Under the pieces are notes generated by a model, which did not search any database, was not told where the DNA came from, and saw only the letters and a program-made list of their open reading frames with translations. DNA of 30,547 nt, taken from positions 1 through 30,547 of IMG/VR virus record IMGVR_UViG_3300020455_000065. One strand, written 5' to 3'. Positions 2,220 through 19,733 of this stretch are shown here, piece after piece (positions within the stretch are counted from its first letter, which is position 1; every line of letters begins with the position of its first letter). This DNA comes from a virus. The translations under genes and the position numbers were made by a program.

Positions 2220-2562
2220 TTCCCCCGTCGTATTTCCATGCAAAGCCACGATCTACCATCTCATTATTAATGTTTTGGCTTCCGACAAAAATAGTTCCCA
2301 GCATCCGTCCGTACTTGCCGTCTTTCTTCGTCTGCACCTTTAAGCCTGAAGGCTCGCCGTCGGCGAGACGCCTTGTAAGAAAGGCTTTTGCTTCAAGTCC
2401 CATCTGCTTTTCTTCGAGGTCGCGTGTCCTGCATTCAGGCGTATCAATGCCTGCGAGACGTACTCTTTCTTTCTTTGTTAATGAAAAGCCCAGGTCGATA
2501 ACAATGTCGATTGTATCGCCGTCAACTATTCTTGCGACTTCCTTGATCTTGTACTCGTACAT
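2179..2562 (-). CDS. Staphylococcal-nuclease-like (SNase) endonuclease
   Basis: 127 aa thermonuclease-fold protein. All three catalytic positions of the SNase family are present: Arg35 in VRLAGIDTPE, Glu43 at the end of the same motif, and Arg86 in YGRMLG. The metal-binding Asp is in IVDGDTIDI (14-20). The C-terminal pattern NNEMVDRGFAWKY is also typical. There is no signal peptide, so it should act in the cytoplasm, cutting DNA or RNA with Ca2+. It is the last gene of the late operon, after the endolysin, and its 5' end overlaps the 55-aa gene by 41 bases. It may help degrade host DNA late in infection or at lysis. Function is confident; biological role is inferred. Confidence 0.88.
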   Translation of the reverse strand: MYEYKIKEVARIVDGDTIDIVIDLGFSLTKKERVRLAGIDTPECRTRDLEEKQMGLEAKAFLTRRLADGEPSGLKVQTKKDGKYGRMLGTIFVGSQNINNEMVDRGFAWKYDGGTKKKDLEELKSRR

Positions 2563-2689
2563 CTTTATCTTTCTGCTTTTTATTGTTGAAGCTGTCTGGT
2601 TTAATAAAACCTTCTTCCATTTCTTCTCTTATTTGTTTCAAGACGTCCTTTAGTTCTTGAACCTCGTCTATTTCATTTATTAAAGGCAT
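2522..2689 (-). CDS. Hypothetical 55-aa charged helical peptide
   Basis: Its ATG (2689-2687) overlaps the endolysin stop by one base (TAATG), and the frame runs 55 codons to TGA at 2522-2524. The N-terminal half is an acidic amphipathic helix (INEIDEVQELKDVLKQI), the C-terminal half is Lys/Gln-rich. There is no membrane segment or lipobox, so it is not an obvious spanin. It runs 41 bases into the nuclease gene in another frame. Coupling to the endolysin and the long open frame support it; function unknown. Confidence 0.55.
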   Translation of the reverse strand: MPLINEIDEVQELKDVLKQIREEMEEGFIKPDSFNNKKQKDKDVRVQDQGSRKNS

Positions 2690-3210
2690 TACTCCACCAT
2701 CATCTCTAATGCTTTATCTATTGTCTCTTTGTTACGACGTGTCCAACCTTTGCCAAACGTGTCGAATGTTGATAGGCTTTCATAAAATTTCTGCCGTGCC
2801 TCACCGAACTCTTCTATTAATTGATGTGTCCTATGAACCTCTTCATCTACCTTTGCTAGAGTTGCAGGGCCAATAGCTCCGTCTGGTTTTGCACCCACTA
2901 TTTTCTGTAGCATTTTTGCACTACGACCACTTCCGCTATTAACACTTACGTCAAAAACGCAGTAGTCCAAACCGCTAGGAAGCGAACTACATTTACATTT
3001 ATCCCAGTATCTTTCTCTATATAATGGCGCGACGTCTTCGTGAGTTAGGTTACGCATGTCTTGCTCTGTAACCTTCTTGCCTACCCATTCTTCCCAGACA
3101 CGCTTTGTTACTCCAAAATTTGTGATACCTCCAGGATCTTTTGGATGCGAAACAAATCCTCCTTCGTGGTGTAACATCATTTTAAGACATTCATCGAAGT
3201 TCTTTTCCAT
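2689..3210 (-). CDS. Endolysin, glycoside hydrolase family 108 type
   Basis: 173 aa, ATG 3210 behind a perfect AAGGAG. The N-terminus has the GH108 muramidase signature: HHEGGFVSHPKDPGGITN with catalytic Glu16, followed by FGVT. The middle (APLYRERYWDKC, near 60-75) and the C-terminal KPDGAIGPATLAKV (near 110) match the associated peptidoglycan-binding region (PG_binding_3). It cleaves the murein glycan strand during lysis. There is no signal peptide or signal-anchor at the N-terminus, so it relies on a holin to reach the cell wall. It sits directly after the holin and a 25-aa membrane peptide. Confidence 0.92.
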   Translation of the reverse strand: MEKNFDECLKMMLHHEGGFVSHPKDPGGITNFGVTKRVWEEWVGKKVTEQDMRNLTHEDVAPLYRERYWDKCKCSSLPSGLDYCVFDVSVNSGSGRSAKMLQKIVGAKPDGAIGPATLAKVDEEVHRTHQLIEEFGEARQKFYESLSTFDTFGKGWTRRNKETIDKALEMMVE

Positions 3211-3651: not shown

Positions 3652-3862
3652 TTATCTTCTCCGATCCAAGCCAGACGGCGAATGCGCCTGTCATCGCCCC
3701 TGTCACTGTTGCTGTTAAACTTGCCGCCTGCGTTGTCATCTCGTCTGGCGACAGGCTTTGAAACCACCACAAAGTATCGAGGTAGGCATATGTCATAATG
3801 CCCATCATAAATCGGGGCAAAAGTCGCATTTTTAAAATTCTTTCCATCGTAATCTCTGGCAT
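3632..3862 (-). CDS. Small two-TM membrane protein of the lysis cassette
   Basis: 76 aa. The start is placed at ATG 3862, which overlaps the stop of the giant gene by one base (TAATG) and has GGGGA five bases upstream; an upstream TTG at 3874 is less likely. Two hydrophobic segments (17-35 and 46-66) flank a short acidic loop (LSPDE), with a basic N-terminus (ERILKMRLLPRF). The size and hairpin topology match class II holins or antiholins, so the phage may use two holin-like proteins; it could instead be a small virion membrane protein. No family is recognised. Confidence 0.7.
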   Translation of the reverse strand: MPEITMERILKMRLLPRFMMGIMTYAYLDTLWWFQSLSPDEMTTQAASLTATVTGAMTGAFAVWLGSEKINDNTTT

Positions 3863-6800
3863 TATGTTCCCCAACCATCACTCATGCTTGACTTCCAGCC
3901 ACCCGTGCTTCCGCTTGAGCTTTCACCCGCAGTGGCGTCGACTACTGCTTCTTTAAACTTTCTGTTACCACCAAGGACTGGAATACGTGTCACCATCTCC
4001 CTGACGGCTGATCTTTCTTTAGAGTTGCTGTTGTCTTTCTCATCCATTAAGCCTGCGCTTACGTTCATTGTTGCTGTACCTAGACCGAATGATGGGCCAA
4101 GAAGCGTTGACCACATACGTTGTTGTCCGTATGCACCATTGTCTGTCTGTGTTACGGCTGAATGAATGACGTCTCCGAGAAGACCAAGACCACCCATAAC
4201 CATCATGCTTTCTACATACCAGCCAAGGAAGTCGTCCTCGTCTCCGTGCGTATCCTTGTCGTAACCTAATACTTTTAGAATGTTCCTCTTTCTTAACGCT
4301 GGATCTCTGTCTTCCTCGCCACCTCTCATCTGAATAATATCTTTAACGCTGAGAGTAACCATACCGAAAGCGGGGCCAACAGACGCTAAGTACATAAGGG
4401 GTGTAAAGTTCCCGTGGTTTGCTTCTTTAAGAACATGACCGCCGAGACGTGACATCATAAGTGGGAATGATTTAAGCTGGAAGACCAGTGAACCGACGGG
4501 TGTCTGCGCCCACATTGGAATGTCGTTAGGGTTCGGCTGGAAGATTGCGTCGTCTGCAAACTTAATGACCGCCATCCGTAGCTTGTCGTCACTCTCCATT
4601 AACGCTTTGTTGCTAAGACTTTCTTTTGCTTTGCTTGCTCCTGGCAGATACTCCTCAAGACCATAGTTCTTTAAGAAACGATGCGCTGTTTTGTATTGAC
4701 CAGACTGCATTGAGTAGGGGACACCTGCCTTAAAGGAATTGTTAGCTTTAATCTGCATTGTCTTGAACGTCTCATAACCTGTAGCTCCAGCGATCTGCCT
4801 GTTCATGTCTGTCCAAGGTGTAAGTAACGTCGCGTTGAAGAAAGCGTGAGACGCTTTGTTATCGGGTGCGCCATACATGTGTACCATGCGTTCGTGTACG
4901 ACGTTCTCCATAGCGACACCGACATTTCTAATCATCTCTTTGTAATCAGGATCGGTCATTTTAGCTAACCCTTTAGCCCAACTTGAGAAAGAGCCAGATC
5001 GTATGATAGGCAGACCCAAGTCACCGATAGATGTTAGTGTTGTGAAGCCGAGGAGTGAGACGTTGTTAAAGAAACGCAGACCTCGTGATACTCTCATGCC
5101 CGTCTTGTTTGTGCCGTGCATAGGCTTCTTGTGAAGGATGCGCATAGCATTATCGACATACTCTTCGCCAGTATCGTAGGCTATCTGTCCTGTTTTTCCT
5201 TTGAAGTCTTGTATTGCACCAACTATGGCTTCAACTCTCTTCTTATATACAGGACTTATTTGTCCTTTAATCATTGGCGCAATGTCCATAAGCATCTGCT
5301 TTGCCCCTGCTGGGCCAGATGTAGTAGCTACTTCAAGTAACTTGTCTGCGAATGCGACAGCTTCACCTTGATTGTTTTCAAATGGCATACGGATTGTGTC
5401 GACAAGAGTAGCTGTTTCCTTTATTCCTTCAGCGTTCATAGCTGTTATGTCATACTCAAACTGCCTTGCCTTTGATAGAAGTCGGGCGATCCCCATACGT
5501 CCTTCTTTTGCTACCATCATGTAGTCAGAGACAGCGTGGCTGTTAAGTCCAAATCGTTTAGAAGATGTAAGACGTCTTGAGCTACCCTCAAGGTATTTTA
5601 CCATGATACTTTCCAGATTACTCTCAAGGAAAGGCTCTAGTTCGTTAAGCATATCTGGGTATTTCTCTAACTCTATGACCCTTGAGTAGTCTACGTTTTC
5701 AAAGGCTGAGTTCTTTGTTGATCCTTTAACTGGAATAAAGACACCACCTTCGCTTTCGTCTAGTAGCTTGAGCATTATACCTTCAGCAAAGGCTTGAGCT
5801 TCTGCGTCGCTATATGTTCTGTTGTTTGTAAGGCTCTCGACTTCGTAGTATCTCTTCATCTTAGAAATAAACTCGTCCTTGTTCTTACGTATCTTGCTCT
5901 GATCCCATACTTGAGGTAGATAGTTCGGGCCTCTGTCACCAACGTGGAAGCCTTCAGCAATCATTTCTTCTCTTTCAGTGCCTAAGATTAATCTGATGTC
6001 TTTGTATATAGCTCTTTCTTGTGTTGTTAACTGACGTTCGGCACGAGACCCATCGCCTCGTCGTAAGGCACGGGTAATTCGTCCGTGAGACTTAGGTTGT
6101 TCTTGTCCAAAGCCAGCCGTTGATCTTCTGAAGTAGCCTCGCAGTATGCCGTCGCTGTCTGGCAAAGATCTGAGAGCGTTGAATATAGGCATGATCTTCT
6201 TGCCAAAACGCTGTTGCATATCTGGGTAATGCTCTTGGTATCTGTCTGCAATCCAGTTCATTCCCTGACTTCTAATCTTTGTTGATACTCTGTTAAGAAA
6301 GCTAAAGACGCCATGCTTTCGTATCGCTTGCTCTTCGGCAGGCGTTGGCTCTTTCTTTCTAAGCATAGACATAACGGCACTTGTCATTGTGCTGTTTGAA
6401 CCACCTTCTTCAACAAGTTCACCGAATTGACCAACAGGTATATCATCAAAACTATTAAGGTCGCCCTTTATAAAGCTATTAATAAGATTTCCTGAAGTGC
6501 CTCTTTCTATTGGCTCTAAGTTATCTACTTGACTGTATAGTTGATTGTCATTTCTATCAAAAAAGTCTGCGGCCATGTGTTTTGCTTGCTCTGGTTTAAA
6601 GAGGATAACGGAGGTGTGCGAGAATGCAGACGCACCATAGGTCATTCCTCTATTCGTTGCCGCGCCACCATAAGAAATTGTGTTTACATGCGTTGACAAT
6701 ATGCCGTCATACCCAAGGTCTTCTAATATTTTGTTCAGCGTACCTTGTGCGGATCGTTTATTCTGACCCGACCATTGGATGGCAGAAACTAATTCTTTAT

Positions 6801-9800
6801 ATGTGTCTGATCCTGATACGTCATTAAGCAATGCGTCTTGCAAATAAGTAAGCGAAAGCTCTGAGTCGTCTGTTCGTTTTAGTATCTCACCCATGATTGA
6901 TTTAATCATTGGATGGTCAATATTATAATCTGCCTGCATTCTGAAATCAGCAGGAGCTTTAAGGTCAATAACCATCGGCATAACATACGGATCAATCGTT
7001 ACACCTTGTTGGGCCAGACCTTCAGCAATCCATTCCTCGGCTTCTAGTAGACTTTCTATCTCAGCTTGATGCGCTTCGAAGTCAAACATCTCACCTTCAA
7101 CAGCCATATCTTGTTCTAGCTCGCCATACTGTCTTCTCTTTTGCGCTATGTTCATTCTTAGTTTAGCCAAGTCGTGGCTATCTATTAAAAGCTCTTCCTT
7201 CCTTGCGTCATCAACATCAAGGTCTCGTATTTGTTCTGCCGTCGATGCAACTGTAGGTCTTTCGGCGTATACTTCCCCTGCTACGTTAGGGTTTTCTGTT
7301 AAGTAATAGCCAGGGCCGTAGTTTCCTATTTTGGAATGTCTGAAGACGACGTTAGGATTGTCTACTCCTCGTCTGAATGCCCAGCCAGCAGGTGTTCCGT
7401 GGAAGAATACGATAGGTCTTTGAGCCGCTTCATCATATCCATATCCACCCTTTGTGTAATTCACTATGTTGGCTTTGCGTGAGCGAGACGAGCCTTTCCA
7501 TGACTGATACCCTGCATCTGACACATGATTTGGGTGGTGTATAATTTGACCACCATATGGATTTGTCGTAGGTGCATTGGTTTTTCCTTGGAACATGTCG
7601 CCATAGAAACTAAGACGTCTGTATCTCTGCTTAACTGCACCACTACCGATCTGTCCGTTGAGTATATAGGCAGAGTGTTCAATTACCTTGTCGATAGCTT
7701 CATCAAACGTCTGCCTCACAGCAATGTCTGTGTCGTCAGCCAGTATAGCGTTTCGTCTTAGGTCTTCACGAGTGTAGGCACTGACTTGTTCCGCAAACCA
7801 TTCGTCAGCTACCTCTTGAGGAGCGTCTTTCCTATGTTTAGCTTTGAATGCCTGAAGGATGGCATCACTTTCTTTCGGATCAAGAACACCAGATCGGGTT
7901 ATTATGCTCATTAAATTAAACATTGCCTGATCGGATTTACCTTTTCCTCTGTTTACTATTGCGGCTATACGTCTGGCTTCTCTTCTAAAGTTGTTAAAGT
8001 CAGGAGTTCTGTAATCGCCAAATACTCCATCACCTGCCTGCCTTACATTTCCGCCACCGAGACGTGCCATATCAAGCGTTGATAATCTGTCGCCTGACTG
8101 CGTCTTTCCAAGCATGTTTACTAATCTGTAGGCAATAGTTCTTGCAGAGGTCTGAACCTCTGCGTCCCTATGGGTGATCTTGGTAAGCATAAACTTTACA
8201 GATGGTCTTGCTGACGCAGGAATGCCGTCGTCTGTTGCAATTCCTTGACTGTCGACTTTTTCTCTTGCGACAAGAACATCAAGAGATTGATGAAATGTTG
8301 CTGGGATCTTTAATTCTTTTGAAGACTTCTTACGTCTCGTCATTTCCCAAGCCACCATATTAACTGTTATTCGATCCCCTTCATAAAAGGCTTCAGTCAG
8401 TTTTGCGTCTAACTCTTTACCAGACATCTGATGGATTTCTCTGGTAATTGGCACTTCTTCGTTAGCAGAAGGTTTAGCTTTAATCTTTGCTACTATCTCT
8501 GCGCCTATCTGATCTCCATAATCTGTACCTCTATGTTGCCTATACATACGTATAAGTCTCTTAATAGGAATAGACTTAACTTCTTGAGCCGTAGTTGGAT
8601 CAACGTCGGGTGCATCTTGTGGGGATGACTTAGCTCTTTTCTTCTTAGTCGTCTTAGCGTTCTTTACTGCTTCTTTAGTAGTTGACGCTTCTACTCTCTT
8701 TGCTCTATTAATAGCCTCTCTTTTTTTATTTGAAAACTTTACTGTGCCGTCTTCCGCGACAGGAGGAGGATCGCCTTTTATAGAATGTGGAACTGAGCCT
8801 GGTGGAAGAAGTTGATTTCCTTCTTTCCTGTTATAGCCAGCACTTAAACTATCTCTTGCCATTTCAAGCGCGGCTTTAATTGATGATCTGTCTTTTCGTT
8901 GGATCTTAGCAGGTATACCTTCGGATGGTGTCCACTTCCCAAGATAGCCATTGTAGTAGAAATCTTTAAGCGCATCAGCTACCTCTACTGGGTTTTTCTT
9001 CATGTGAGTAAGACCTTCGAACTCTCCGCCCTCAAGGAATTTTCTTGCCATAGGTCTGTCGTCAATAGAAACAAAATCGCCCATTGGATTGCCGCGCATG
9101 ATCTCGTCCATTGCTCTAAACTTGTCGTTAAGAGTAGTGAGTATCTTTTCAGGCTTTCCGTTTGTACGTCTGAGTGCAAGCAGTGGCCCTGTTCCACCCA
9201 TCTTTACGTGTCGGCTAAGTTGTATTTCTTTGTTGTTGACGGCGACGCCGAGTATCCAACGCTGTAAGTCTTGGAAGCCATTGATGATACCATCTGTACT
9301 GTCTGTCTCTATTGCCGAGACGATGTCGTCTTCAATAAGATTGAGCATCTTAAAGCGTGACTCAAGGACTTTGCCTTCTTTTGATTTTGGTTCTCCGTCT
9401 ACGCCAAAAGAGAATTGCTTACGCTCTTCTTCTGGCAGTATCTTTGAAAATAAGGGTTCGAGGTCTGGGTCGATACGTTTCTTATCGTAGTATCTGTCGA
9501 ATATAGCTTTAACAAATCTAGCCATTTTCTTCCAGAAGTTTGGATCTTTATTAATTATACCATCGTGCTTCTGTGCCACCCACATTGAAAACTGATTAGC
9601 AAAAAATTCTTGAGGCGATGTTTCGGTGTTTGTAGTAAGAGGTCTTAAATCCGTTTCCCCGTCTATTCTAATATTTTCTTTAGCAAATTTTGGAAGATGG
9701 TTTCGAACACGGGTCTTATCAATTTTTCCGCCAGCATCAAAATATTTGTCCATGCTTTCCCAGAATGCAATACGATCATCTGGTGTTAATATGTTTTGGT

Positions 9801-12800
9801 AAGCCCAGTGACCAATCTCATGCACAAGTGTTACTGTTCTTGGTTGCATTGATTGTGTTGCTTGGTTAACACCTATTTGATTATTTACGAAGTTATAACT
9901 TCCTGCATTTTCATTACCGCCTGCGGCCGTGCCTTTTAATATAGGCGCAGTATTTGGGTCGCCACCTAGATTGCTGATAAGTCTTTGGGCTGACTTGACT
10001 TCTTCTGGAGAAAACTTATCAAAAACTTTTCCGATATTATCAACGGCAATCTTGCGTTCCATACTAGGAAGCAAATACCCATTAGGCGCGGCACGTTTCT
10101 GGATTGCGTAAAGTATTTTTAATTGCTTAACAATCTTATGCTGTTCTAGTACATCAAGAGGCCATCTTGTACTCCCGTCAAGATTCTCCGTTAATGCTCT
10201 AATATCTTTAAAAGAAACTTCGTTGGGGGCATTTAACTGTTGAAATTGCCCTCCCTGACGTTTCATTACAATGTTATTTACTTCTCTTAATAACTTAGCT
10301 TCTTCATCTGTGAGTTTTACTGTTAGCGCATCAACCTCTTCGACAGCTAATGGCTGACCTGCTCCTGTAGCATTCCCTGCTTCAAACAGACCGCCTGCGC
10401 TAGGCTGTCCTTCCATCAATCCTTCTTCTGGAGGTAGGCTTTCAAAGAGTTCTGTCTTTGCTTTTGATGATCTTGGGTAAGCATCCATTGGGGCGTAACG
10501 TACATCCCAGTTAGCAGGGTCAGACGAACGACCACCTTTCTGCCCAATTATTGAGTAGATGTCTTTGCCGTCTTCTACTTGCTTTGCGCTCATAATCCGT
10601 ATGTCGTCTGGATTATCTTTGCTTCGCACTATAAGTTTCTTGCTTCCACTCTGAGGGGGAGGGCTTGCTTTTGCGTTGGAGCTTTCAGGTAAGTTCTCTT
10701 TAGCTTCAGGCGTATTGCCTTTCTTTTGTTGAACATTACGTTTGAGTTCAGCCAGTAATTGTTCAGGGCCGTTAAGGTCTTTATCTTCTTTTATTTGACG
10801 AAGTAGGGCTTGTATCTTTCCTTTTATAGTTTCGTCTTCAGGCTTTTTAGCTGTAGGTTCAACGGGTGCTGGCTTACTACCTCTTGCCCTTAATGCTAAA
10901 TCCTGGCTTGCAAATGCTTTTCCTGTTACTGCGTCTGCCCATGCTGTGCCACCTTTAGGAATTTCAACCAGACCATTATTACCAAATACTTTCTCTGTTC
11001 CCGTTGTGGTGTAAGGCACAAGGTCAACGCCTTTGCCAGATTTTGCTTGGATCATTGCCGCTTCTCGACCTAGTTCACTTGCTCTCGCTCCGTATCCTGA
11101 TGTTGTTGTGTAGTCTGACCCTTTAGCAATAGGCATACCTCGACGCAGAATGCTCTGTATACGCCCCGTAGATTCCCGTCCAGCCGTTGTGTATACACCT
11201 TTCCTGTCAATGTTCGCCTGCGTTGTTCTAACGTCTGAGCGAGGCTGTGCGCCTCTCTCTTTTCTAACTCTTGCTTCTGCTACTAATTGTACTGCTTCAT
11301 CACTAAGGTCAGGTAATTCTCCTTTGATCTGCTTGGAGTGTGTTCGAATAAGTTTTTTCTCAGTTGTTGTCCAAATGTCATCTGCCATTGCTTTGACTTC
11401 AACGTCATCGAAAAACCCCGCCTTTTTTAGCTCGTGTCGGGCGAGAGCCACAATGTCTCCACTTCTTAATCCTCCCCCAAAATCTTCAGTTTCAGCGAGC
11501 ATTGTCACGGCTCTCATCATAGTGTCGCCAGTTTCTTTGTTTACAGGAAGAGAAGCAAATTCCTCCATCTCAGCAAGGTATTCGAATATACCAGCTACAT
11601 CATCGTCAACTTGTTTAGCTACTGGATCTTTGGCTCCCTTTTTTCTTCCCTTCATAGCTTGAGCCAATGAGCCTCTAGTTATTCTTCCACTTGCTGATTT
11701 TGCACTAGGCTTTAAATTTCGCCAGTCTAACCCTGCCGCTAATGCACGACCTTTCATTTCTACTGAAATAGGGGGTTCGTCTACAACTGGCTCAACAATT
11801 TCTTGGTCAATAACCTCCTCTGGAGGTTCGTCTGCTTTTGGCTCTTCCACTACAGGTTCTTCTGCCTTCGGCTCTTCTGCTTTAGGTTCTTCGACTACAG
11901 GCTCTTCTGTCTTTCCTTCTCCAGCTTTAGGTTTTGCTGTTGCTTCTTCGACGGGAACTTCCTCTGACACAGGTGCTTCTGGTGTTTCGGCTAATTCTGT
12001 CTCTGTGGTTGTTTCTGTCTCAGGCTTACGCTTTAAGCCAAACCCATCTTCCTCCATTCGAGCTATAAGTTGTTCAGAAGAAAGACCTTCTGCTCCGTTA
12101 AGAACCCGTCTGACGTCTCGCATATAAGCCTCGAAACGAACCCGCATTTGAGCCGCTATCTTTTCGTCACCTAAATCAAGTGACTGTTCTAGCTCATTTA
12201 TTTGTTTAGCTTCACGTTTCGCTCTTTGTACTGCCTGACGCATAGAGGCGAGTTGCGCTACCCATTCGGTACTTGCATCTAGCGTCTCATTGTCTGCGCC
12301 ATCAAGACCCTCTCTATCAAGTTGGTCACGAGCTTTTTTTGTTACGTCTTGGAATAATTTTTCTAGGGTGTCTAGGTCTTGAGCGTAGCCGCCGAACTCT
12401 CCTGTGTTAAAAACTGTTTGTGTTTGTTCTGGTTCTACAATCGGTGTATCTGTTGGCGTTGCTTGCGCTTGTGCATTAGGATCAGGGAATGGGCCTCCTC
12501 GTGCGGCGGTTGCCTGTAGTTGTGCTAGTTGTTCGGGTGGTAAAGCGTTTATTTGTTCGGGTGACAGACCCATAAACTGACCCGCTTTTGCTGTGTTTAT
12601 ACCTTCTCGCGCTCCTGCTAAAGCAGTCGGAACACCTATTGCGCCACCCACACCTGCACCAAGGACTGCGCCCGTACCAGACGCAAGGCCTAATTGACCT
12701 AAACTAAATTCGTCTTGCAGACCAAGTTGTATGTCACGGGCTTGGTGTGCTGTATTTACCACAGCTTCCTGTCCTGCTCCGATTGCCGCTTCTGTTCCTG

Positions 12801-13308
12801 CCGCTTTAGTTGTGCCAGACAAGACGCCTCTCATCATAGGTGAAGACTTGCCAGCAAGATAAGCAGATCGTCCCGCAACCGATGCACCTTTGTACGCGGC
12901 AACCCCTGGAATTAAGTTGACTGGGTCAGCAAGAATAGACGTGGCTATGTCACCAAAGGCTTTCGTTCCTCGTCCACCTTCTTGCCAGAAGAATGGCATC
13001 TGTCGCCAGACTTGTTCGATACGCTTCATGCGTTCACGATCTTCTTTATTTCCTGTGTGTGCTTCTACCGCAGAACCTATTGCCCCTATTGTATTGAGGT
13101 CATCCCACGTTTTATCGCTGTAGAACATATCTATGAGATGTTTGTCGTCTGAGAAATATTCTCCCTTGTCTCTGTAGTAACTTCTTAGATCGTTAAGAAA
13201 CGCTGGGTCATTAAGTATTTTATTGGGGTCGACGTTGGCTGAATAATCAGATTGTGTAGTATTATCGTACTTGTTAAGGTCGAGTTGACCCTTCGTATAA
13301 AAGCCCAT
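3862..13308 (-). CDS. Giant polyvalent internal virion protein (zincin + ART-like modules)
   Basis: 3148 aa, ATG 13308 behind GGAG. Layout: N-terminal region with two glycine/alanine-rich hydrophobic segments (about 119-151 and 203-233); a Glu/Pro-rich linker (about 426-513); unknown helical regions; a zinc-peptidase motif HEIGH at 1163-1167 with a possible third ligand Glu1234 (SPQEFFA); a Lys-rich linker; an ADP-ribosyltransferase-like module with HGTP (His1970), YGPGYYLTENP (1997-2007), YDGI (2200-2203) and FKPEQ (Glu2240); then a long C-terminal region with several hydrophobic segments (about 2740-2773, 2960-2993, 3030-3053). This is the style of phage 'polyvalent' proteins carrying LPD domains. 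As the last of four internal-protein genes it takes the place of T7 gp16, so it is probably packaged and ejected into the host. No lysozyme/transglycosylase motif was seen. Confidence 0.85.
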   Translation of the reverse strand: MGFYTKGQLDLNKYDNTTQSDYSANVDPNKILNDPAFLNDLRSYYRDKGEYFSDDKHLIDMFYSDKTWDDLNTIGAIGSAVEAHTGNKEDRERMKRIEQVWRQMPFFWQEGGRGTKAFGDIATSILADPVNLIPGVAAYKGASVAGRSAYLAGKSSPMMRGVLSGTTKAAGTEAAIGAGQEAVVNTAHQARDIQLGLQDEFSLGQLGLASGTGAVLGAGVGGAIGVPTALAGAREGINTAKAGQFMGLSPEQINALPPEQLAQLQATAARGGPFPDPNAQAQATPTDTPIVEPEQTQTVFNTGEFGGYAQDLDTLEKLFQDVTKKARDQLDREGLDGADNETLDASTEWVAQLASMRQAVQRAKREAKQINELEQSLDLGDEKIAAQMRVRFEAYMRDVRRVLNGAEGLSSEQLIARMEEDGFGLKRKPETETTTETELAETPEAPVSEEVPVEEATAKPKAGEGKTEEPVVEEPKAEEPKAEEPVVEEPKADEPPEEVIDQEIVEPVVDEPPISVEMKGRALAAGLDWRNLKPSAKSASGRITRGSLAQAMKGRKKGAKDPVAKQVDDDVAGIFEYLAEMEEFASLPVNKETGDTMMRAVTMLAETEDFGGGLRSGDIVALARHELKKAGFFDDVEVKAMADDIWTTTEKKLIRTHSKQIKGELPDLSDEAVQLVAEARVRKERGAQPRSDVRTTQANIDRKGVYTTAGRESTGRIQSILRRGMPIAKGSDYTTTSGYGARASELGREAAMIQAKSGKGVDLVPYTTTGTEKVFGNNGLVEIPKGGTAWADAVTGKAFASQDLALRARGSKPAPVEPTAKKPEDETIKGKIQALLRQIKEDKDLNGPEQLLAELKRNVQQKKGNTPEAKENLPESSNAKASPPPQSGSKKLIVRSKDNPDDIRIMSAKQVEDGKDIYSIIGQKGGRSSDPANWDVRYAPMDAYPRSSKAKTELFESLPPEEGLMEGQPSAGGLFEAGNATGAGQPLAVEEVDALTVKLTDEEAKLLREVNNIVMKRQGGQFQQLNAPNEVSFKDIRALTENLDGSTRWPLDVLEQHKIVKQLKILYAIQKRAAPNGYLLPSMERKIAVDNIGKVFDKFSPEEVKSAQRLISNLGGDPNTAPILKGTAAGGNENAGSYNFVNNQIGVNQATQSMQPRTVTLVHEIGHWAYQNILTPDDRIAFWESMDKYFDAGGKIDKTRVRNHLPKFAKENIRIDGETDLRPLTTNTETSPQEFFANQFSMWVAQKHDGIINKDPNFWKKMARFVKAIFDRYYDKKRIDPDLEPLFSKILPEEERKQFSFGVDGEPKSKEGKVLESRFKMLNLIEDDIVSAIETDSTDGIINGFQDLQRWILGVAVNNKEIQLSRHVKMGGTGPLLALRRTNGKPEKILTTLNDKFRAMDEIMRGNPMGDFVSIDDRPMARKFLEGGEFEGLTHMKKNPVEVADALKDFYYNGYLGKWTPSEGIPAKIQRKDRSSIKAALEMARDSLSAGYNRKEGNQLLPPGSVPHSIKGDPPPVAEDGTVKFSNKKREAINRAKRVEASTTKEAVKNAKTTKKKRAKSSPQDAPDVDPTTAQEVKSIPIKRLIRMYRQHRGTDYGDQIGAEIVAKIKAKPSANEEVPITREIHQMSGKELDAKLTEAFYEGDRITVNMVAWEMTRRKKSSKELKIPATFHQSLDVLVAREKVDSQGIATDDGIPASARPSVKFMLTKITHRDAEVQTSARTIAYRLVNMLGKTQSGDRLSTLDMARLGGGNVRQAGDGVFGDYRTPDFNNFRREARRIAAIVNRGKGKSDQAMFNLMSIITRSGVLDPKESDAILQAFKAKHRKDAPQEVADEWFAEQVSAYTREDLRRNAILADDTDIAVRQTFDEAIDKVIEHSAYILNGQIGSGAVKQRYRRLSFYGDMFQGKTNAPTTNPYGGQIIHHPNHVSDAGYQSWKGSSRSRKANIVNYTKGGYGYDEAAQRPIVFFHGTPAGWAFRRGVDNPNVVFRHSKIGNYGPGYYLTENPNVAGEVYAERPTVASTAEQIRDLDVDDARKEELLIDSHDLAKLRMNIAQKRRQYGELEQDMAVEGEMFDFEAHQAEIESLLEAEEWIAEGLAQQGVTIDPYVMPMVIDLKAPADFRMQADYNIDHPMIKSIMGEILKRTDDSELSLTYLQDALLNDVSGSDTYKELVSAIQWSGQNKRSAQGTLNKILEDLGYDGILSTHVNTISYGGAATNRGMTYGASAFSHTSVILFKPEQAKHMAADFFDRNDNQLYSQVDNLEPIERGTSGNLINSFIKGDLNSFDDIPVGQFGELVEEGGSNSTMTSAVMSMLRKKEPTPAEEQAIRKHGVFSFLNRVSTKIRSQGMNWIADRYQEHYPDMQQRFGKKIMPIFNALRSLPDSDGILRGYFRRSTAGFGQEQPKSHGRITRALRRGDGSRAERQLTTQERAIYKDIRLILGTEREEMIAEGFHVGDRGPNYLPQVWDQSKIRKNKDEFISKMKRYYEVESLTNNRTYSDAEAQAFAEGIMLKLLDESEGGVFIPVKGSTKNSAFENVDYSRVIELEKYPDMLNELEPFLESNLESIMVKYLEGSSRRLTSSKRFGLNSHAVSDYMMVAKEGRMGIARLLSKARQFEYDITAMNAEGIKETATLVDTIRMPFENNQGEAVAFADKLLEVATTSGPAGAKQMLMDIAPMIKGQISPVYKKRVEAIVGAIQDFKGKTGQIAYDTGEEYVDNAMRILHKKPMHGTNKTGMRVSRGLRFFNNVSLLGFTTLTSIGDLGLPIIRSGSFSSWAKGLAKMTDPDYKEMIRNVGVAMENVVHERMVHMYGAPDNKASHAFFNATLLTPWTDMNRQIAGATGYETFKTMQIKANNSFKAGVPYSMQSGQYKTAHRFLKNYGLEEYLPGASKAKESLSNKALMESDDKLRMAVIKFADDAIFQPNPNDIPMWAQTPVGSLVFQLKSFPLMMSRLGGHVLKEANHGNFTPLMYLASVGPAFGMVTLSVKDIIQMRGGEEDRDPALRKRNILKVLGYDKDTHGDEDDFLGWYVESMMVMGGLGLLGDVIHSAVTQTDNGAYGQQRMWSTLLGPSFGLGTATMNVSAGLMDEKDNSNSKERSAVREMVTRIPVLGGNRKFKEAVVDATAGESSSGSTGGWKSSMSDGWGT
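11800..11910 (-). repeat. Glu/Pro-rich degenerate repeat within the giant gene
   Basis: Repeated short units reading EEPKAEEP/EEPVVEEP give an acidic, extended linker between the N-terminal region and the enzymatic part. At DNA level the units (ggttcttc, ggctcttc and similar) recur every 12-24 bases, so the tract could change length by slippage or recombination. Confidence 0.7.
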
Positions 13309-13368: not shown

Positions 13369-15978
13369 CTATTGAGAGGGTGCGGGTCTATTTATATTTA
13401 GGCTTTCCATGAAGCCTTTGCCCTTGGTTTGCCACCAGTTCAAGACAAAATCGTCTCCATTGGAAAGCATAAATTCGTAGGGATTAGATGTAAATGCGTT
13501 AAAAATTTCTGGACTTTCCATAAGTTTTGCTCGAATACCTGGGGTATCAAGAAATCTTCTTACGGCTAATGCCTTCTCTTGCTCTAATTCAGTATTAAAA
13601 AATCCACCGATAAACCCTGCTGTTTGACCATGCTGTGATGCTATGTTTTCAAGTTTCTGAGATAAGTCCAATTCGTTTTTGAAGTCACCCCACGTTTGTG
13701 AAAATGCACTTTGGGTATCATCTAATTGCGTATTGTTATCTGCGTTTGGTGTTGGATTTAACTCTGCTTGCGCCGCTTTCTTTTGTTTGGCGAGGTTGAT
13801 CTTGCCTTGTATTTCTTCTCTTAAACTACTGATAGCCGATCCAAGTTGGGCTTGGACTGTGTTGCCATCACCAAAGAACATGCTGTCATCCCATGCCTCA
13901 GTTCCAACAGTTCTCCAGCCAGAGAAGTCTTTTGATCTGCTTTCACGCAGACGCAATTCTTCCATCATAGCAGTTTGCCCCTTTGTTAAAGCCAGCATTA
14001 GGTCGTTCAATGCTTCAATTTGGTTATCATACTGGTCTGCAAAACGTGACGTGATTGTGTTGATGTCGGCTTGCACGTCGTTAAGGGATGTATCAATTCT
14101 TTGCAAGACGTCGTCTCTGTATTCAGTTACAGACATTTGTTCAAAACGTCCTAGAGTTTGTTGGGCGTTTTCGTACACGTCCTGTTTAGCTTTAGACAAA
14201 GAATTTGTAGACGCTTTAAACTGCTCATCATTTTCAATCAAATCCATTAATTGTACTTGGTCTATTCCTTGCGGTAGGTTTTGATCGAGCATTATTTGTT
14301 GCATTCTATACATGGCTTGCTGTGTCATTTCATATTTGTTTGCAAGCATTGCCGCCGCCTGTTGTCCTGAACTTCCTGTTTTACCGACAATTTTTTCATT
14401 GAACTTGCCTTTTGTGTGATCGCCAAACCACTCTATAACTTTTTCAACATTGGCTTTTACAAAGGCGTCTGCTTTAGTTCCAGCCGCTTCTGATGTAGTC
14501 CTGTTTGCTTCAGTGATATCTTTTCTTTGCCTTACAATTAGCCCTTCGTTAATAAGATTTATTAAGTTCATATAGTAGTCGTCTGGTATTCCGTCTGGGC
14601 CAAACACTCTAGCAATAGTTGCTTGATCGAGAGAGTTCTCAACAAACTGTTTAAGTTTAGGTAGCTGGGTTTCTTTATCATCAAGGAAGAGTGCTGATGC
14701 AAATGACTCGTTAGCCAGAATTGTATCTCTCTGTTCGTTAAGAATATTTTGCGCTTCTCTTGATCGCTCAATGCTTTGATCTGCAATAACTTTGTCTGCT
14801 TCTAGCTGTACGGCTTTGAACATGGCACTGTCTTTACTCATAACATTTTCTGCTCCAAACCTTTCAACGACGGCGGCGTGTATATCCGTTACACCATCTT
14901 TCTTCAGTTGCAGAATATAATTCATTATATCGCCTTTGATCTTGGTCATACGATCATATTGTTTATCTTCGTACTGTTGTGTTGATTTCTTCTGAATGTC
15001 TGCCCATAACGGATCAGTTGAAGGCGGTAGGTTTTCTGCGCCGTATACTCGTGATACTTCGCTGTAAATATTATCTAACCCTCTATCTGCTAGACCTAAT
15101 GCAAGGTTGAGCATTTCTCCGTAGCGATCTCTAGCAAACTTATCACGTTTGTTATTGAGGTTTTCATTAGCTATTTCTTGCCAATTTTCCCATTGAGGGT
15201 CGCCTTTATTTGGCAATGCCGATGCGTCAAACATTCCTGTTATTGTTCCATAAATGTCTTGGTCGTTTCTTGTAATAGCTTTTTCTACTTCACGAAGAAT
15301 AGCTGAGTTCTCAGTTCGAGCGTAAGTCTTCTTACGTTCGACGTCCAACGACAATGCTCTTTCTTGGATAGGTTTCCAAAGTTCTGTTGGCAGGGAAGAA
15401 AATGTTTTTTCAATTAAGCTCATATCAATCTTGCCCCCTGCGCTCTGTATCATCTCTGTGATACGTGGGGTTAGTTCGATTAATTTGTCTTGTATATATT
15501 CTGTCTTTTTTCTGGGATTAAATATTTCTACTGGGTTAATATTCATAGAAGAAAAGTCTACCCCTGTAAAACGCTCTTGAAATTTTTTGCCCATATTCAC
15601 TAGGTCAGACGGAGAATATGTTCCGTTTTCACCAGTGCCTTTAGTATTCAGCATTATGCCTAAAGCCATGTCTCCAGCTTCAGTCATAAATTTCATCGCA
15701 TAACTTAAATCTTTTTGCGCTCTTTCTTTTTCAGCGATAGCTCGTCTGTCATCTGCACTTTTTACTACGGCTTTAAGAGTATCGCCAGCAGGCATACCGC
15801 CACGAAGATAGTTACTACCTCCTGCCGCAGTGTCTATAAAGCCTTGGAACTCTCCTGCTGTAGCCATTGGGTTGAGACGGGTAAACTCGTTAAACGCTTT
15901 CGCCAACTCACGGCGTTCACGCTTCATCTTGTCGTGATTAGTATTTTGTCCTGAAGCAAATCCTGCCCAATTTATCAT
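13369..15978 (-). CDS. Internal virion protein, large helical (T7 gp15-like position)
   Basis: 869 aa. I place the start at ATG 15978, which overlaps the stop of the preceding gene (ATGA) and follows GGTGGA; a TTG twelve bases further out is less likely. The product is almost entirely helical and charged. An N-terminal segment has a conserved-looking look (FNEFTRLNPMATAGEFQGFI, then GGSNYLRGGMPAGD), and the remainder has Gln/Asp/Lys-rich helices and several 'Y..M..L' repeats near residues 240-400. No enzyme motif is visible. Between the 490-aa protein and the giant protein, it corresponds in order to T7 gp15, so a role in the ejectosome is inferred. A 60-base gap without an obvious terminator separates it from the giant gene. 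Confidence 0.7.
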   Translation of the reverse strand: MINWAGFASGQNTNHDKMKRERRELAKAFNEFTRLNPMATAGEFQGFIDTAAGGSNYLRGGMPAGDTLKAVVKSADDRRAIAEKERAQKDLSYAMKFMTEAGDMALGIMLNTKGTGENGTYSPSDLVNMGKKFQERFTGVDFSSMNINPVEIFNPRKKTEYIQDKLIELTPRITEMIQSAGGKIDMSLIEKTFSSLPTELWKPIQERALSLDVERKKTYARTENSAILREVEKAITRNDQDIYGTITGMFDASALPNKGDPQWENWQEIANENLNNKRDKFARDRYGEMLNLALGLADRGLDNIYSEVSRVYGAENLPPSTDPLWADIQKKSTQQYEDKQYDRMTKIKGDIMNYILQLKKDGVTDIHAAVVERFGAENVMSKDSAMFKAVQLEADKVIADQSIERSREAQNILNEQRDTILANESFASALFLDDKETQLPKLKQFVENSLDQATIARVFGPDGIPDDYYMNLINLINEGLIVRQRKDITEANRTTSEAAGTKADAFVKANVEKVIEWFGDHTKGKFNEKIVGKTGSSGQQAAAMLANKYEMTQQAMYRMQQIMLDQNLPQGIDQVQLMDLIENDEQFKASTNSLSKAKQDVYENAQQTLGRFEQMSVTEYRDDVLQRIDTSLNDVQADINTITSRFADQYDNQIEALNDLMLALTKGQTAMMEELRLRESRSKDFSGWRTVGTEAWDDSMFFGDGNTVQAQLGSAISSLREEIQGKINLAKQKKAAQAELNPTPNADNNTQLDDTQSAFSQTWGDFKNELDLSQKLENIASQHGQTAGFIGGFFNTELEQEKALAVRRFLDTPGIRAKLMESPEIFNAFTSNPYEFMLSNGDDFVLNWWQTKGKGFMESLNINRPAPSQ

Positions 15979-17447
15979 GTGTTCCACCAACTATTAAACT
16001 TGTCATTTGCCCATTTATCCATACTGTTCATCCAACTGCCTTCAGTTGCGCTTGAGTCTTTTAACAGTTCGTCAAACCTCTTACCAAATCCCTGACCAGC
16101 TTTATACGCATTGTCGTATGACTTATCGTAAGAACTTGATGCCGCGTTGTAGAGATTGTTACCGATGCCTATTGCGTTGGACATATAGGTGGATGGGTCT
16201 TGTAAGGTCACGCCGTAAGGATCCATTCTACCTGACTTGACATTGAAACCTTGGTTAGAAGAAAGGGATGTTGGTCTTGAGTAGTCAGCCATTCCAGGTG
16301 TTAGCGAACCTTGGACGGCGGCAGTTCCTATTGGTATAGGTGCGTCGAAGTCAGATGCGCTTAGTAGGTTTCTACTGTAGATGCCAGATGGTACGAGACG
16401 TGCGAGTTCGTAAGCGTTTACGGCTGATGATGCTTGAGGTGTCTGCATTAGCTGGTCAATACCTGCGCCGTAGACGTTACCTGTCTCGCCAAGTATTCTT
16501 CCTCTTTGGTTCATTATGTCTTCGATGTTGCCAGTCAGGACATCGCTCTCGCCAGTGATGTAACGGATTGCGTCGTCTTGGGCTTTAACCCTTGCCTGCT
16601 GATATTCATTTGCTAAACGTGCCGCAATGTCTCCTCGTCTCGCAGTGCCAGGGGTGCTTTCGTCAAGGCCTGCCCGAATGAGATCAGCTTCGTTTACAGA
16701 GGCTACACGATCCGCCGCTCTGTCTACGTCGCCCATGTATTGCGTTGTTCTCTTGTCGATCTCAGCGTCTATGTCTGCCTGAGAAATACTATCTACAGTT
16801 GGCATATATCCAAGGTTTCTTGATGTATCTCTGAGTGCGCTTTGCATACCAAAGATCTGGTTCATTATCATATCTCGGTTACGCATTTGGTCATCACGTT
16901 CAGCGAAGGATTGATCCCTTGCATCCATAAACTGACCCATGAGGAACTCACGTTCCATCTGAGCCATTGCTCGCTCTTCGTAGAAGCGTCGCTTGTCTTC
17001 GTCTCGTTCACCTGAAGCTATTGCTTTTACTTCGTTAAGTTGCTGTATAGCAAACTCACGTTCTTGCGCTGATATGTCTTGCCGTTGTAATAGGTTTTGT
17101 AAGTTGAACTGTTGGATCTTTGCCGCTTCTTTGTCTTCAGCCAACTGTCTTTCAATGTCTTGACGCCTTTGCTCCATAGCGTATTGCTTGTTTTCGTCAA
17201 CAATGTTCAGTTGATATTGGCGTTCTTGTTGCATCAAGAGCCTGTTCAACTGCTCCATTTCTCTTTGGTAAGCGTTCTCTTCTCTTTGATCTCTTTGAGC
17301 ATCTGCCATCATGCCTAGTTGCAGATTTTGCATGTCCATCTGCTTGTTGAACATTTTTTCTCTTAATGCTCTGTCTTTGTTGGCTTGATTGTTAGCGGAG
17401 ACTGCTCCGAAAACATTTGATGCTAAACCTAACACTGTTGAAAACAT
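15975..17447 (-). CDS. Internal virion protein, Gln/Arg/Glu-rich coiled coil (T7 gp14-like position)
   Basis: 490 aa, ATG 17447, three bases after the stop of the previous gene. The N-terminus is short and hydrophobic (MFSTVLGLASNVFGAVSA), followed by a very long Gln/Arg/Glu/Met-rich helix (about 20-200) that should form a coiled coil, then a more mixed C-terminal half rich in Asp, Gly and Ser. A membrane-active N-terminus followed by helices recalls T7 gp14, the ejected protein that sits in the outer membrane. That match is by position and shape, not by recognised sequence. It overlaps the next gene by four bases. Confidence 0.7.
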   Translation of the reverse strand: MFSTVLGLASNVFGAVSANNQANKDRALREKMFNKQMDMQNLQLGMMADAQRDQREENAYQREMEQLNRLLMQQERQYQLNIVDENKQYAMEQRRQDIERQLAEDKEAAKIQQFNLQNLLQRQDISAQEREFAIQQLNEVKAIASGERDEDKRRFYEERAMAQMEREFLMGQFMDARDQSFAERDDQMRNRDMIMNQIFGMQSALRDTSRNLGYMPTVDSISQADIDAEIDKRTTQYMGDVDRAADRVASVNEADLIRAGLDESTPGTARRGDIAARLANEYQQARVKAQDDAIRYITGESDVLTGNIEDIMNQRGRILGETGNVYGAGIDQLMQTPQASSAVNAYELARLVPSGIYSRNLLSASDFDAPIPIGTAAVQGSLTPGMADYSRPTSLSSNQGFNVKSGRMDPYGVTLQDPSTYMSNAIGIGNNLYNAASSSYDKSYDNAYKAGQGFGKRFDELLKDSSATEGSWMNSMDKWANDKFNSWWNT

Positions 17448-17450
17448 AGT

Positions 17451-19316
17451 CTAAGCCCTTATAACATTTTGCGTAAACGCTGATGGCAAGCCTGTAGATA
17501 GATTTTCTTCCTCCTCTTGGGTTCTTAGTAGGTTTAAGTATTGCTCTATAGACATTGGATCAATTTGGTTTCTAGCTAGGTCATTAAATTGCATAACGCC
17601 AGATCGCCCTATAGCTGATGCGACGTCTGATGACTCACGTCGTAGTCTTTCGGCTACGTTTGCTTCATCTGTTACCAGTCTGTTTCGCTCGGAGTTTAGT
17701 CTGTTCTCGACTTGTTGTATTTCATCGAGAGCTTGTTGAGCGTTGTATAGTTCTACCTCTGCGTTGAGAGCATCGAATTGTGTTTGTGAACCCGTCAGAT
17801 CGTTTGATGCGTAGAAGTTAGCGTTGTTTATTTGCTCAAGAAGTTCCTGCGCTCTTGTTTCTAATTGACCACGGGCAGTGGAAAGCTCCTGAAGTCGTGT
17901 ATCAATCGCCGAATTAGCGTTAGAAAGTTGAGTTTGCATTTCATTTACTCGCCCTCCTGAGAATTGTCCTAAGTTATAGCCAGCATCACGCAATGCGCTT
18001 TGCAAACCTTCCATCCCTGTCTGGTCGTATGCCTTTAAATCTGTAAGATTAGAGCCAGATGCACCTGTTATCTGGTTAAGAATGTTGTCAAGCTCAGACT
18101 TTCTTCTTTCGTTTAATGAGGCTATGGCTGTTTCAGCGTCTGTTGTTGATCCTGTAGCCCGCGAAAAGTCGTAGGGCAGGGCAGATGAAAATCCAGAGAC
18201 GTCGCCCTGTAGGTCTCGCAGTCTGTCTTCAAGTCTGTCGATACCTGCCGCGCTGTATATGTTGCCACCTTCTGCTGATCGTTCAAGTTCTCTTGCGTCT
18301 CCCAGATAATTTCTTTCTGCTGACGAAATACGATCAAGCTCTCTTTGTCTTTCGTTTTGAAGACCTGAGACGTCTGTATATATGTCGCTAAGTTCACCGC
18401 CTTCTTGCGAAAGATCGAACCCAAGGTCGGAAGAGAAACGTCCTACGCCTCTTTGTCGGGTTTGAATATCTTTGAGAAGGGTGTCTATTGCGTTCTCGTC
18501 GGCGATTGTTATGTCATCAAACCTATCTCTATAGGCATCAACGTCTGTGAGAATGCCAGACTCAAACTGAGAAATTCGATCTTGTTCTGCTTGACGTTGG
18601 TTTCTAAGCTCTTGTAGGCCAGATGTGAGGTTTGAGTATTGCGTATTGAATTGAGATAAACCATCTGGATACATTTGGCTCAAAAGCGGAGAGTTGAAGT
18701 TGTCTGCTCCTGCCTTTAAACCTGATAAATCTCTTTCCATCTGGTTCATTTGTGAGAGATCGCCTATTCCCATCTGCCCAAGTTGAGTGCTGTAGCCAGC
18801 GAGGTCTGTAAGTCCTCTGCTTCTGTAGTCTTCCACCCGTCTTACTTCGTCTTCTCTCTGTCTGTTGAGATTGTTGAGAGTGTTCATCAAATTGTTCAAG
18901 TCCATATTGGCAGTGTTGTACTGATTGGTATTCGCTTTCAAGAGATCAGGAATGTTATTAATGCCGACAGTTCCATACTCTGTATTCATTGATGATTTAA
19001 AGGTTGGTTTTTGAGCGTCCATAGTTAAACCACCAAGACCTGTCTGTAGGTTTTGTAGTTGTGTTTGGTATCCGCTATAAGGATTTTCGTTTTCGGCTGT
19101 TGTTGGGTCGTCGTAAAGATCAGCGTAGGTTAATCCACCTATATTGCTTGATAAGTTTCCTAATTGATTGGTAAATGTACCTAACTGTGTGTTGTATTCG
19201 CCAATAGATTTATTATAAGCATCCGCTTGCGTCTGGTACTTATCCTCTGTGGCCTGTCTTATCTCACCTTTCTCGGCAGAATAATCTGGTGGTGCGTCTG
19301 ATCCCCCTTTACCCAT
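17451..19316 (-). CDS. Internal virion protein with tandem ~80-90-residue repeats
   Basis: 621 aa, ATG 19316 behind GAGAGG. The start (MGKGGSDAPPDYSAEKGEIR) resembles that of other podoviral internal or tail-core proteins. The body is Asn/Gln/Leu-rich coiled coil. Four degenerate repeats can be traced at about 145-233, 234-318, 319-400 and 401-475: each starts with LxxxRxxExxR, passes through a Leu/Asp-rich helix and a Gly-x-Phe-Ser motif (GRFSSDLGFD, SGFSSALPYD, GQFSGG). The C-terminus (LLRTQEEEENLSTGL) is acidic. No enzyme motif is seen. It is the first of four consecutive internal-protein genes, after the GNAT gene. Role in DNA ejection is inferred. Confidence 0.68.
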   Translation of the reverse strand: MGKGGSDAPPDYSAEKGEIRQATEDKYQTQADAYNKSIGEYNTQLGTFTNQLGNLSSNIGGLTYADLYDDPTTAENENPYSGYQTQLQNLQTGLGGLTMDAQKPTFKSSMNTEYGTVGINNIPDLLKANTNQYNTANMDLNNLMNTLNNLNRQREDEVRRVEDYRSRGLTDLAGYSTQLGQMGIGDLSQMNQMERDLSGLKAGADNFNSPLLSQMYPDGLSQFNTQYSNLTSGLQELRNQRQAEQDRISQFESGILTDVDAYRDRFDDITIADENAIDTLLKDIQTRQRGVGRFSSDLGFDLSQEGGELSDIYTDVSGLQNERQRELDRISSAERNYLGDARELERSAEGGNIYSAAGIDRLEDRLRDLQGDVSGFSSALPYDFSRATGSTTDAETAIASLNERRKSELDNILNQITGASGSNLTDLKAYDQTGMEGLQSALRDAGYNLGQFSGGRVNEMQTQLSNANSAIDTRLQELSTARGQLETRAQELLEQINNANFYASNDLTGSQTQFDALNAEVELYNAQQALDEIQQVENRLNSERNRLVTDEANVAERLRRESSDVASAIGRSGVMQFNDLARNQIDPMSIEQYLNLLRTQEEEENLSTGLPSAFTQNVIRA

Positions 19317-19319
19317 AAT

Positions 19320-19733
19320 TTACCTCTCTAACCATTTGCATTCTTCTTTGATTTGCCCGTAGATAATCCCGTCTTCTTCTTTGAAATATTTTCTGAGCCT
19401 ACCTTCTTCTTTGAAACCCGTGGCTTCGCAGAACTTTTTTGATTTCTTGTTTCCGTCCCTGACCAACGCTGAAATGCGGATACAACCGCATTGATTAAAG
19501 GCGTAATCGTGTAGTATTTTAAGATGCTTGCGAGATAACCATTTCGGGTTTGTAGAGACGGCACTGACATGGATGTCTGCGCCCGTCCACTCCGTAAAAA
19601 TGACTGCACCGATAAGATCGCCGTTGGAGACAAAGCCAAACGCTTGAAATTTATCCCACCTAATGTTCCTGTCAATCTTGGGAGCGGCCCACTTTGCAAC
19701 TCTTTCTTTGTCATTCGTTATTACCTCAATCAT
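19320..19733 (-). CDS. GNAT-family N-acetyltransferase
   Basis: 137 aa, ATG overlapping the stop of the upstream tail gene by one base (TAATG). The GNAT fold is visible: a strand GDLIGAVIFTEW (38-49), the central VSAVSTNPKWLSRKHLKIL (57-73) covering beta4 and the acetyl-CoA-binding helix in a variant form, RISALVRDGNKKSKKFCEATGF (86-107) with the typical N-x-x-S/A...E-x-x-GF motif, and a C-terminal EEGRLRKY...GIIYG strand. It transfers an acetyl group from acetyl-CoA to an unknown amine. Such genes recur among the tail genes of environmental podoviruses, so a substrate in the virion or host surface is possible but unproven. Confidence 0.85.
   Translation of the reverse strand: MIEVITNDKERVAKWAAPKIDRNIRWDKFQAFGFVSNGDLIGAVIFTEWTGADIHVSAVSTNPKWLSRKHLKILHDYAFNQCGCIRISALVRDGNKKSKKFCEATGFKEEGRLRKYFKEEDGIIYGQIKEECKWLER

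Follow-up and report, generated by a model that had tools for sequence, protein, structure and literature searches.

A probable T7 gp16-type ejection protein fused to polyvalent zincin- and ART-fold cargo in a CRP-810-type marine podovirus

Introduction

Gp16 of phage T7 is an ejection protein of 1318 residues that begins with a transglycosylase. Two putative membrane regions (residues 243-410 and 1119-1290) lie on either side of gp16-C, a part assigned to the cytoplasm, and gp16-like proteins covered by a 2022 review span 609-1337 residues, with an N-terminal transglycosylase that is not universal among them (present in T7, absent in P22-type) (PMC8954989). Polyvalent proteins are large multi-domain proteins that carry zincin and ADP-ribosyltransferase (ART) domains within virion gene blocks (Iyer et al., 2017, PMC5512222); about 8% of them have more than one zincin, and their metallopeptidases are assigned to the same superfamily as lethal-factor-type zincins (PMC5512222). 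ARTs have been found in only about 3% of podoviruses (PMC9503650). Here, we describe a 3148-residue protein ("the giant") encoded in the IMG/VR virus record IMGVR_UViG_3300020455_000065, whose 30,547 bases, taken whole, form the window analysed. The closest cultured relative of this virus is the Roseobacter (CHUG) phage CRP-810 (OR671924), on which a proposed marine phage family is founded (PMC11288001). The giant resembles T7 gp16 in its C-terminal core fold, in the place of its gene after the core-protein block and in its lack of cysteine, and differs in having about 1800 residues of zincin, ART-fold and PSBD-like cargo with linkers and no transglycosylase match. It is ordinary in kind and unusual in construction: its gp16-type core is well supported, and homology and predicted folds indicate that this core is fused to polyvalent cargo.

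Results

An original prediction, made from the letters of the window, had proposed a single 9.4-kb frame without giving its strand; the frame was confirmed on the minus strand, and residue n begins at position 13308-3(n-1).

3862 to 13308, minus strand: giant ejection protein, ATG start, 3148 codons, about 348 kDa, no cysteine
3862 to 6441, minus strand: gp16-type ejection core with hydrophobic C-terminal segments, residues 2290-3148, from fold and profile chain

Scans of IMG/VR returned 32 loci with the C-terminus, and profile searches found 180 relatives with the C-terminus profile and 155 with the zincin profile (80 kept in each case). AlphaFold2 models were made for residues 2290-3148 (54 sequences; mean pLDDT 72.6, pTM 0.73) and residues 1055-2254 (45 sequences; mean pLDDT 79.5, pTM 0.49). 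When the C-terminal model was compared with the PDB using VIA, the four best rows were all T7-type core or ejection proteins, led by the tetrameric ejection protein of PhiM1 (8vb2_A, Z 9.5, 292 aligned, rmsd 6.6), which shares this core fold, and followed by T7 (9jyy_I, Z 8.8, 270 aligned, rmsd 5.7; 7eyb_I, Z 8.1, 246 aligned, rmsd 5.6) and E1004 (9vvp_W, Z 8.4, 256 aligned, rmsd 5.3), with the next row at Z 5.7. Since helical models often yield middling Z scores, support from sequence was sought. The giant (P0001) matches phrog_684, a virion structural protein family (E 7.7e-20), and its C-terminal profile aligns over 329 columns with a 1500-residue Microcystis phage protein (probability 96, E 4.8e-9) that in the same region matches phrog_342 (E 4.9e-91), the family to which T7 gp16 itself belongs (E 0). 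There is also a direct profile match (hhalign) to T7 gp16 residues 614-716, short and with probability 24 (E 8.4e-4), which runs colinearly with the fold match. We conclude that residues 2290-3148 form a gp16-type core, an assignment that sequence profiles and the predicted fold support well.

Hydrophobic segments lie at residues 2750-2770, 2968-2992 and 3027-3053, in agreement with the C-terminal ones proposed originally, and at about 206-232. The original prediction had seen no transglycosylase motif, and Pfam and PHROGs gave no transglycosylase match in the giant, nor was there one in the three upstream proteins of its block. Pfam matches of P0001 to CSTF_C and FlgN, and of relatives to eukaryotic families, were judged chance. 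In a 2050-residue protein of Aeromonas phage phiA008 (L249:7765-13917), an SNase-type nuclease forms the N-terminus and the C-terminus is related to the gp16-type core; by its sequence it appears to carry another cargo on the same chassis.

Between the N-terminal segment and the core lie two zincin modules and an ART-fold module.

9304 to 10146, minus strand: zincin 1, residues 1055-1335, lethal-factor-type zincin fold and conservation
9808 to 9822, minus strand: predicted zinc-binding and catalytic motif HEIGH, residues 1163-1167, conserved in relatives
9607 to 9609, minus strand: predicted third zinc ligand Glu1234 (SPQEFFANQF), invariant in the A2 alignment, 73/76
7447 to 8331, minus strand: zincin 2, residues 1660-1954, degenerate here, HExxH...E in relatives and profile likeness to zincin 1
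7906 to 7920, minus strand: degenerate zinc site FNLMS, residues 1797-1801, HExxH in L018 and CRP-810
6547 to 7446, minus strand: ART-fold module, residues 1955-2254, best PDB match 9k3a_B, PF18760 weak
7399 to 7401, minus strand: ART His1970 (HGTP), kept in 63/64
7303 to 7305, minus strand: ART Tyr2002 (GPGYYLT), kept in 65/66
6613 to 6615, minus strand: Thr2232 in the alignment column of the usual catalytic Glu

The original prediction had named the absence of zincin or ART folds as evidence against itself; the fold search found both. Residues 1084-1297 match the lethal-factor catalytic domain at Z 7.5 (148-149 aligned, rmsd 4.0-4.2), a moderate score that alone lies within the noise range and counts only together with the HExxH block. 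At least one HExxH arises by chance in 3.9% of shuffles of the giant's composition. The predicted HEIGH motif, located at residues 1163-1167, is nevertheless not a chance occurrence, because it is fixed in relatives, with H1163, E1164, H1167 and E1234 all kept in 70 of 73. Zincin 1 is thus, on its sequence and model, probably an active metallopeptidase. The zincin 2 profile aligns motif-on-motif with that of zincin 1 (E 2.6e-4, probability 42); its HExxH and Glu are intact in 37 of about 62 relatives and read HEIGH in L018 and CRP-810, whereas this virus has FNLMS, so that, judged by their sites, one zincin is probably active and the other dead.

For the ART module, the best PDB match of residues 1936-2247 is a chain of the cyanophage A4 pre-ejectosome, 9k3a_B (Z 10.9; 176 aligned, rmsd 3.6). 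In that podophage ejection protein the ART fold was solved within the virion. Further matches are to tankyrase/PARP (Z 6-7) and MbcT (Z 6.4). Pfam ART-PolyVal (PF18760) scores 20.1 bits (E 0.0011), below its cut-off of 31.2, with 22.6 bits in L022. The 9k3a_B chain is probably A-4L ORF27 (1717 residues), which, unlike the giant, has no HExxH and no detected homology to the C-terminal core. The original proposal of an ART-like module holds for the fold and for the conserved His and Tyr. The usual Glu column is Thr here and, in an assignment that depends on an alignment, holds Glu in 19, Thr in 15, Asp in 12 and Lys and Gln in 5 each of 64 scored relatives. With His and Tyr nearly invariant and Thr in the third column, the module of this virus may lack activity, work in an unconventional way or serve as a binding domain.

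If a polyvalent protein is one phage or plasmid protein with at least two unrelated effector domains, the zincin and ART folds place the giant among them, and the comparison drawn originally is apt given both folds in one chain and the conservation of their motifs. When the PDB sequences were searched with profiles of the zincin, the ART module, the C-terminus and the N-terminus, and with a combined profile, only noise came back.

The N-terminal third carries the following features.

12604 to 13308, minus strand: N-terminal module, residues 1-235, a homologue of the pelagiphage "internal virion protein D" N-terminus
12613 to 12693, minus strand: glycine-rich hydrophobic segment, residues 206-232, candidate membrane or pore segment
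11794 to 12048, minus strand: acidic Pro/Glu/Ala low-complexity linker, residues 421-505, highest dN/dS of the protein
11653 to 11775, minus strand: PSBD-like (E3_binding) domain, residues 512-552, family profile and PF02817 in relatives

Residues 20-235 match pelagiphage internal virion protein D over 199 columns in profile-profile comparison (probability 99.9, E 4.7e-33), and also by tblastn. Profile comparison of the C-terminus with that protein gave no match, nor did comparison with HTVC033P gp52. These comparisons thus do not show the giant to be a shorter homologue with a clean insertion. LPD38 is a polyvalent-protein domain of unknown function; it is found by Pfam in gp52 of Pelagibacter phage HTVC033P (L251:11833-16014; 1393 residues), the N-terminus of which matches that of the giant. 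The low-complexity linker expected from the original prediction was found at about residues 421-505. The features that go beyond that prediction are the degenerate zincin at residues 1660-1954, the PSBD-like domain at 512-552 and the absence of cysteine.

PSBD is the E3/E1-binding domain of the E2 subunit of 2-oxoacid dehydrogenases, in which it is placed after a Pro/Glu-rich linker; in the giant, the PSBD-like domain likewise directly follows the acidic Pro/Glu linker, and it is conserved in the family alignment. The family profile retrieves about 34 sequences from the PDB, almost all of them E2 PSBDs (best E 6.8e-8), and PF02817 is above its cut-off in five relatives (L022, L070, L074, L049 and L057). 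The segment of this virus has by itself no Pfam match and no G-T/S-G loop; by homology to the relatives, residues 512-552 would be a divergent PSBD member. Similarly shaped small helical domains (SAP/Rho-N type) act elsewhere as nucleic acid binders. No relevant report of PSBD in phage virions was found in the literature searched.

About 58 distinct relatives exceed 2800 residues. Most have frames of about 2870-3954 residues in the order N-terminal module, zincin 1, zincin 2, ART and C-terminal core, and a few divergent ones have no recognisable ART block. The giant frames of L170, L175 and L090 are of this kind, and in L170 the zincin 1 profile matches at two stretches; the cargo differs between lineages. 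Against L002, the nearest non-identical relative, the ratio of nonsynonymous to synonymous substitution rates (dN/dS) comes to 0.08 for the C-terminus and 0.15-0.26 for the N-terminus and modules, and reaches 0.46 for the linker. Codons of every module are under purifying selection, strongest in the C-terminal core, and conservation among relatives is likewise higher in the C-terminus than in the N-terminus and motif blocks.

The giant has no cysteine, nor do 54 of the 58 sense-strand relatives above 2800 residues, and the other four carry one or two each. Two more frames, with 23 and 30 cysteines, run antisense. At the rate of the other counted proteins of the window (27 cysteines in 3848 residues), about 22 would be expected in the giant. 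Also free of cysteine are the three upstream block proteins, T7 gp15 and gp16, N4 gp50, gp51 and gp52, and 27 of 27 pelagiphage homologues, while A-4L ORF27 has one. The absence fits unfolding and refolding across the oxidising periplasm, without proving it, and its sharing is possibly a simple sequence marker of ejected proteins; no relevant report of cysteine-free ejection proteins was found in the literature searched.

The late genes on the minus strand encode a scaffold-like protein, the major capsid protein (phrog_1328), two small proteins, a match to the CRP-810 stabilization protein, a tail fibre and a GNAT, followed by proteins of 621, 490 and 867 residues, the giant, a small protein, a GH108 lysozyme and an SNase-type nuclease.

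17451 to 19316, minus strand: upstream ejection-block protein, 621 residues, no cysteine, CRP-810 gp39 homologue
15975 to 17447, minus strand: upstream ejection-block protein, 490 residues, no cysteine, CRP-810 gp38 homologue
13369 to 15972, minus strand: upstream ejection-block protein, 867 residues, no cysteine, CRP-810 gp37 homologue

This order is that of CRP-810 and resembles T7, in which gp14, gp15 and gp16 follow in succession; the position after head/tail and core-protein genes in the late block is comparable to that in T7 and in pelagiphage HTVC168P. The gp16 slot at the internal-protein block, as originally proposed, is thus backed by CRP-810 synteny, the gp16 fold and the profile links. 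CRP-810 gp34-gp36 belong to the same protein family, with the same neighbours, at 57% identity over the C-terminus and 36% over the rest; gp36 is annotated as internal virion protein D and the others as hypothetical, and the record notes no domains. An exact 31-bp tandem duplication that shifts the frame lies at the gp35/gp34 boundary (L034:24067-24128) and, as a real mutation or a sequence error, may be the reason for separate CRP-810 open reading frames there. The giant gene of L003 is also split, at places other than in CRP-810.

The GNAT acetyltransferase gene (phrog_4470; 19320-19733) sits inside the tail/ejection block, in the same place as that of CRP-810. The stand-alone SNase-type nuclease (2179-2562) adjoins the lysozyme gene, and L119 and L133 have a 78% identical copy directly after the giant gene. 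Tail-fibre-like genes lie at 19733-21292, 26749-27828, 28237-28944 and 28946-30520; the last three have common "SNLTSGTVPDAR"-type repeated segments, which suggests duplicated fibre parts. A scan of bacterial genomes found no prophage copies; three prophages of the CRP-810 phage type have been reported (PMC11288001).

Discussion

We consider it probable that the giant is a gp16-class ejection protein of a CRP-810-type marine podovirus, with polyvalent cargo between its N-terminal segment and its gp16 core. The C-terminal core would, by its fold, place it in the internal core above the portal, and on infection it would unfold, leave via the tail and refold in the envelope like T7 gp16. Because the cargo lies between the hydrophobic N-terminal segment and the core, the PSBD-like domain, zincins and ART module would, following T7 gp16 topology, be exposed on the cytoplasmic side. 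Zincin 1 might divide the delivered chain into working pieces, or cut host proteins; zincin 2 would in this virus be a dead copy with a structural or regulatory part; and the ART-fold domain might modify or merely bind a host factor. Enzymatic action of the cargo is plausible; action on host defence or transcription, as proposed originally, is a more tentative suggestion.

Several observations weigh against this assignment. Packaging and ejection are inferred from sequence and model evidence, though on a much firmer footing than in the original prediction, and the predicted structures cover residues 1055-2254 and 2290-3148 of the chain. Z scores of 8-9.5 for a helical model are below the caution level of about 13 stated for the tool, so what counts in the fold evidence is that its first four rows all belong to one class, together with the sequence chain, in which the direct match to T7 gp16 is the short one given above. 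Foldseek without VIA found nothing significant for the model of residues 2290-3148 or of residues 1055-2254. The protein is spread over three open reading frames in CRP-810 (gp36, gp35 and gp34) and is a single frame here. Finally, the N4 major capsid protein is cysteine-free too, so this absence is not unique to ejected proteins.

The inserted modules might instead be structural leftovers, degenerate zincin and ART folds that serve the ejectosome as spacers, docking surfaces or folding aids and have no enzymatic role in the host. The loss of the zincin 2 site here and in about 40% of relatives would fit this, as would the free variation of the third ART residue across the family (E, T, D, K, Q), but the zincin 1 HExxH and Glu (70/73) and the ART His and Tyr (nearly all) are under purifying selection that is hard to explain without catalysis or ligand binding, and we regard this explanation as rather unlikely. 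Zincin 1 might also act early, while the virion is assembled, as a maturation protease on the giant or on other head proteins, in the way suggested for P1 DdrB, with the cargo then entering as separate pieces; this is compatible with the gp16 assignment and differs in mechanism. P1 DdrB undergoes processing ahead of packaging, and autoproteolysis has been proposed for these metallopeptidases, yet the N4 virion RNA polymerase (vRNAP), the closest analogue in size with a HExxH domain, is packaged uncut (PMC5512222). CRP-810 does encode the protein as three pieces, but its gp35/gp34 boundary coincides with the exact 31-bp duplication and is therefore maybe an accident, and we judge pre-ejection processing unlikely. 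That the giant is itself an N4-type vRNAP-like protein is extremely improbable: N4 gp50 (3500 residues) is likewise giant and ejected, with a HExxH domain and no cysteine, and ART fusions are known in N4-like vRNAPs (PMC5512222), but the giant has no RNA polymerase family match in Pfam or PHROGs, its C-terminus is gp16-like instead, and its zincin, ART and C-terminal alignments (residues 1055-3148) have no profile match to gp50, so that no polymerase or sequence relationship was detected.

Polyvalent effectors and gp16 ejection proteins are known, as is a podophage pre-ejectosome structure that contains an ART fold. What looks new in the literature searched is a gp16-type core combined with tandem zincins, an ART and a PSBD, all in a single chain of about 3-4 thousand residues, an arrangement that persists throughout a phage family; the size of the fusion and its PSBD also look new, and the searched text of the polyvalent-protein survey mentions neither gp16/internal virion proteins nor PSBD (PMC5512222). 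By sequence, the PSBD-like domain suggests an unsuspected host target. A speculative extension by analogy, which we hold to be a long shot, is that it docks on the host pyruvate or 2-oxoglutarate dehydrogenase complex and that the zincin or ART module acts on central metabolism, or uses the local NAD pool, in the first minutes of infection. The gp16-type reading with polyvalent cargo links structural work on podophage ejectosomes (T7, PhiM1, A4) with predicted polyvalent effectors and, if true, would make the DNA-delivery protein itself an effector-delivery vehicle in a widespread marine phage family (CRP-810 type; hosts Roseobacter CHUG and SAR11), an idea that the cultured member CRP-810 makes directly testable.

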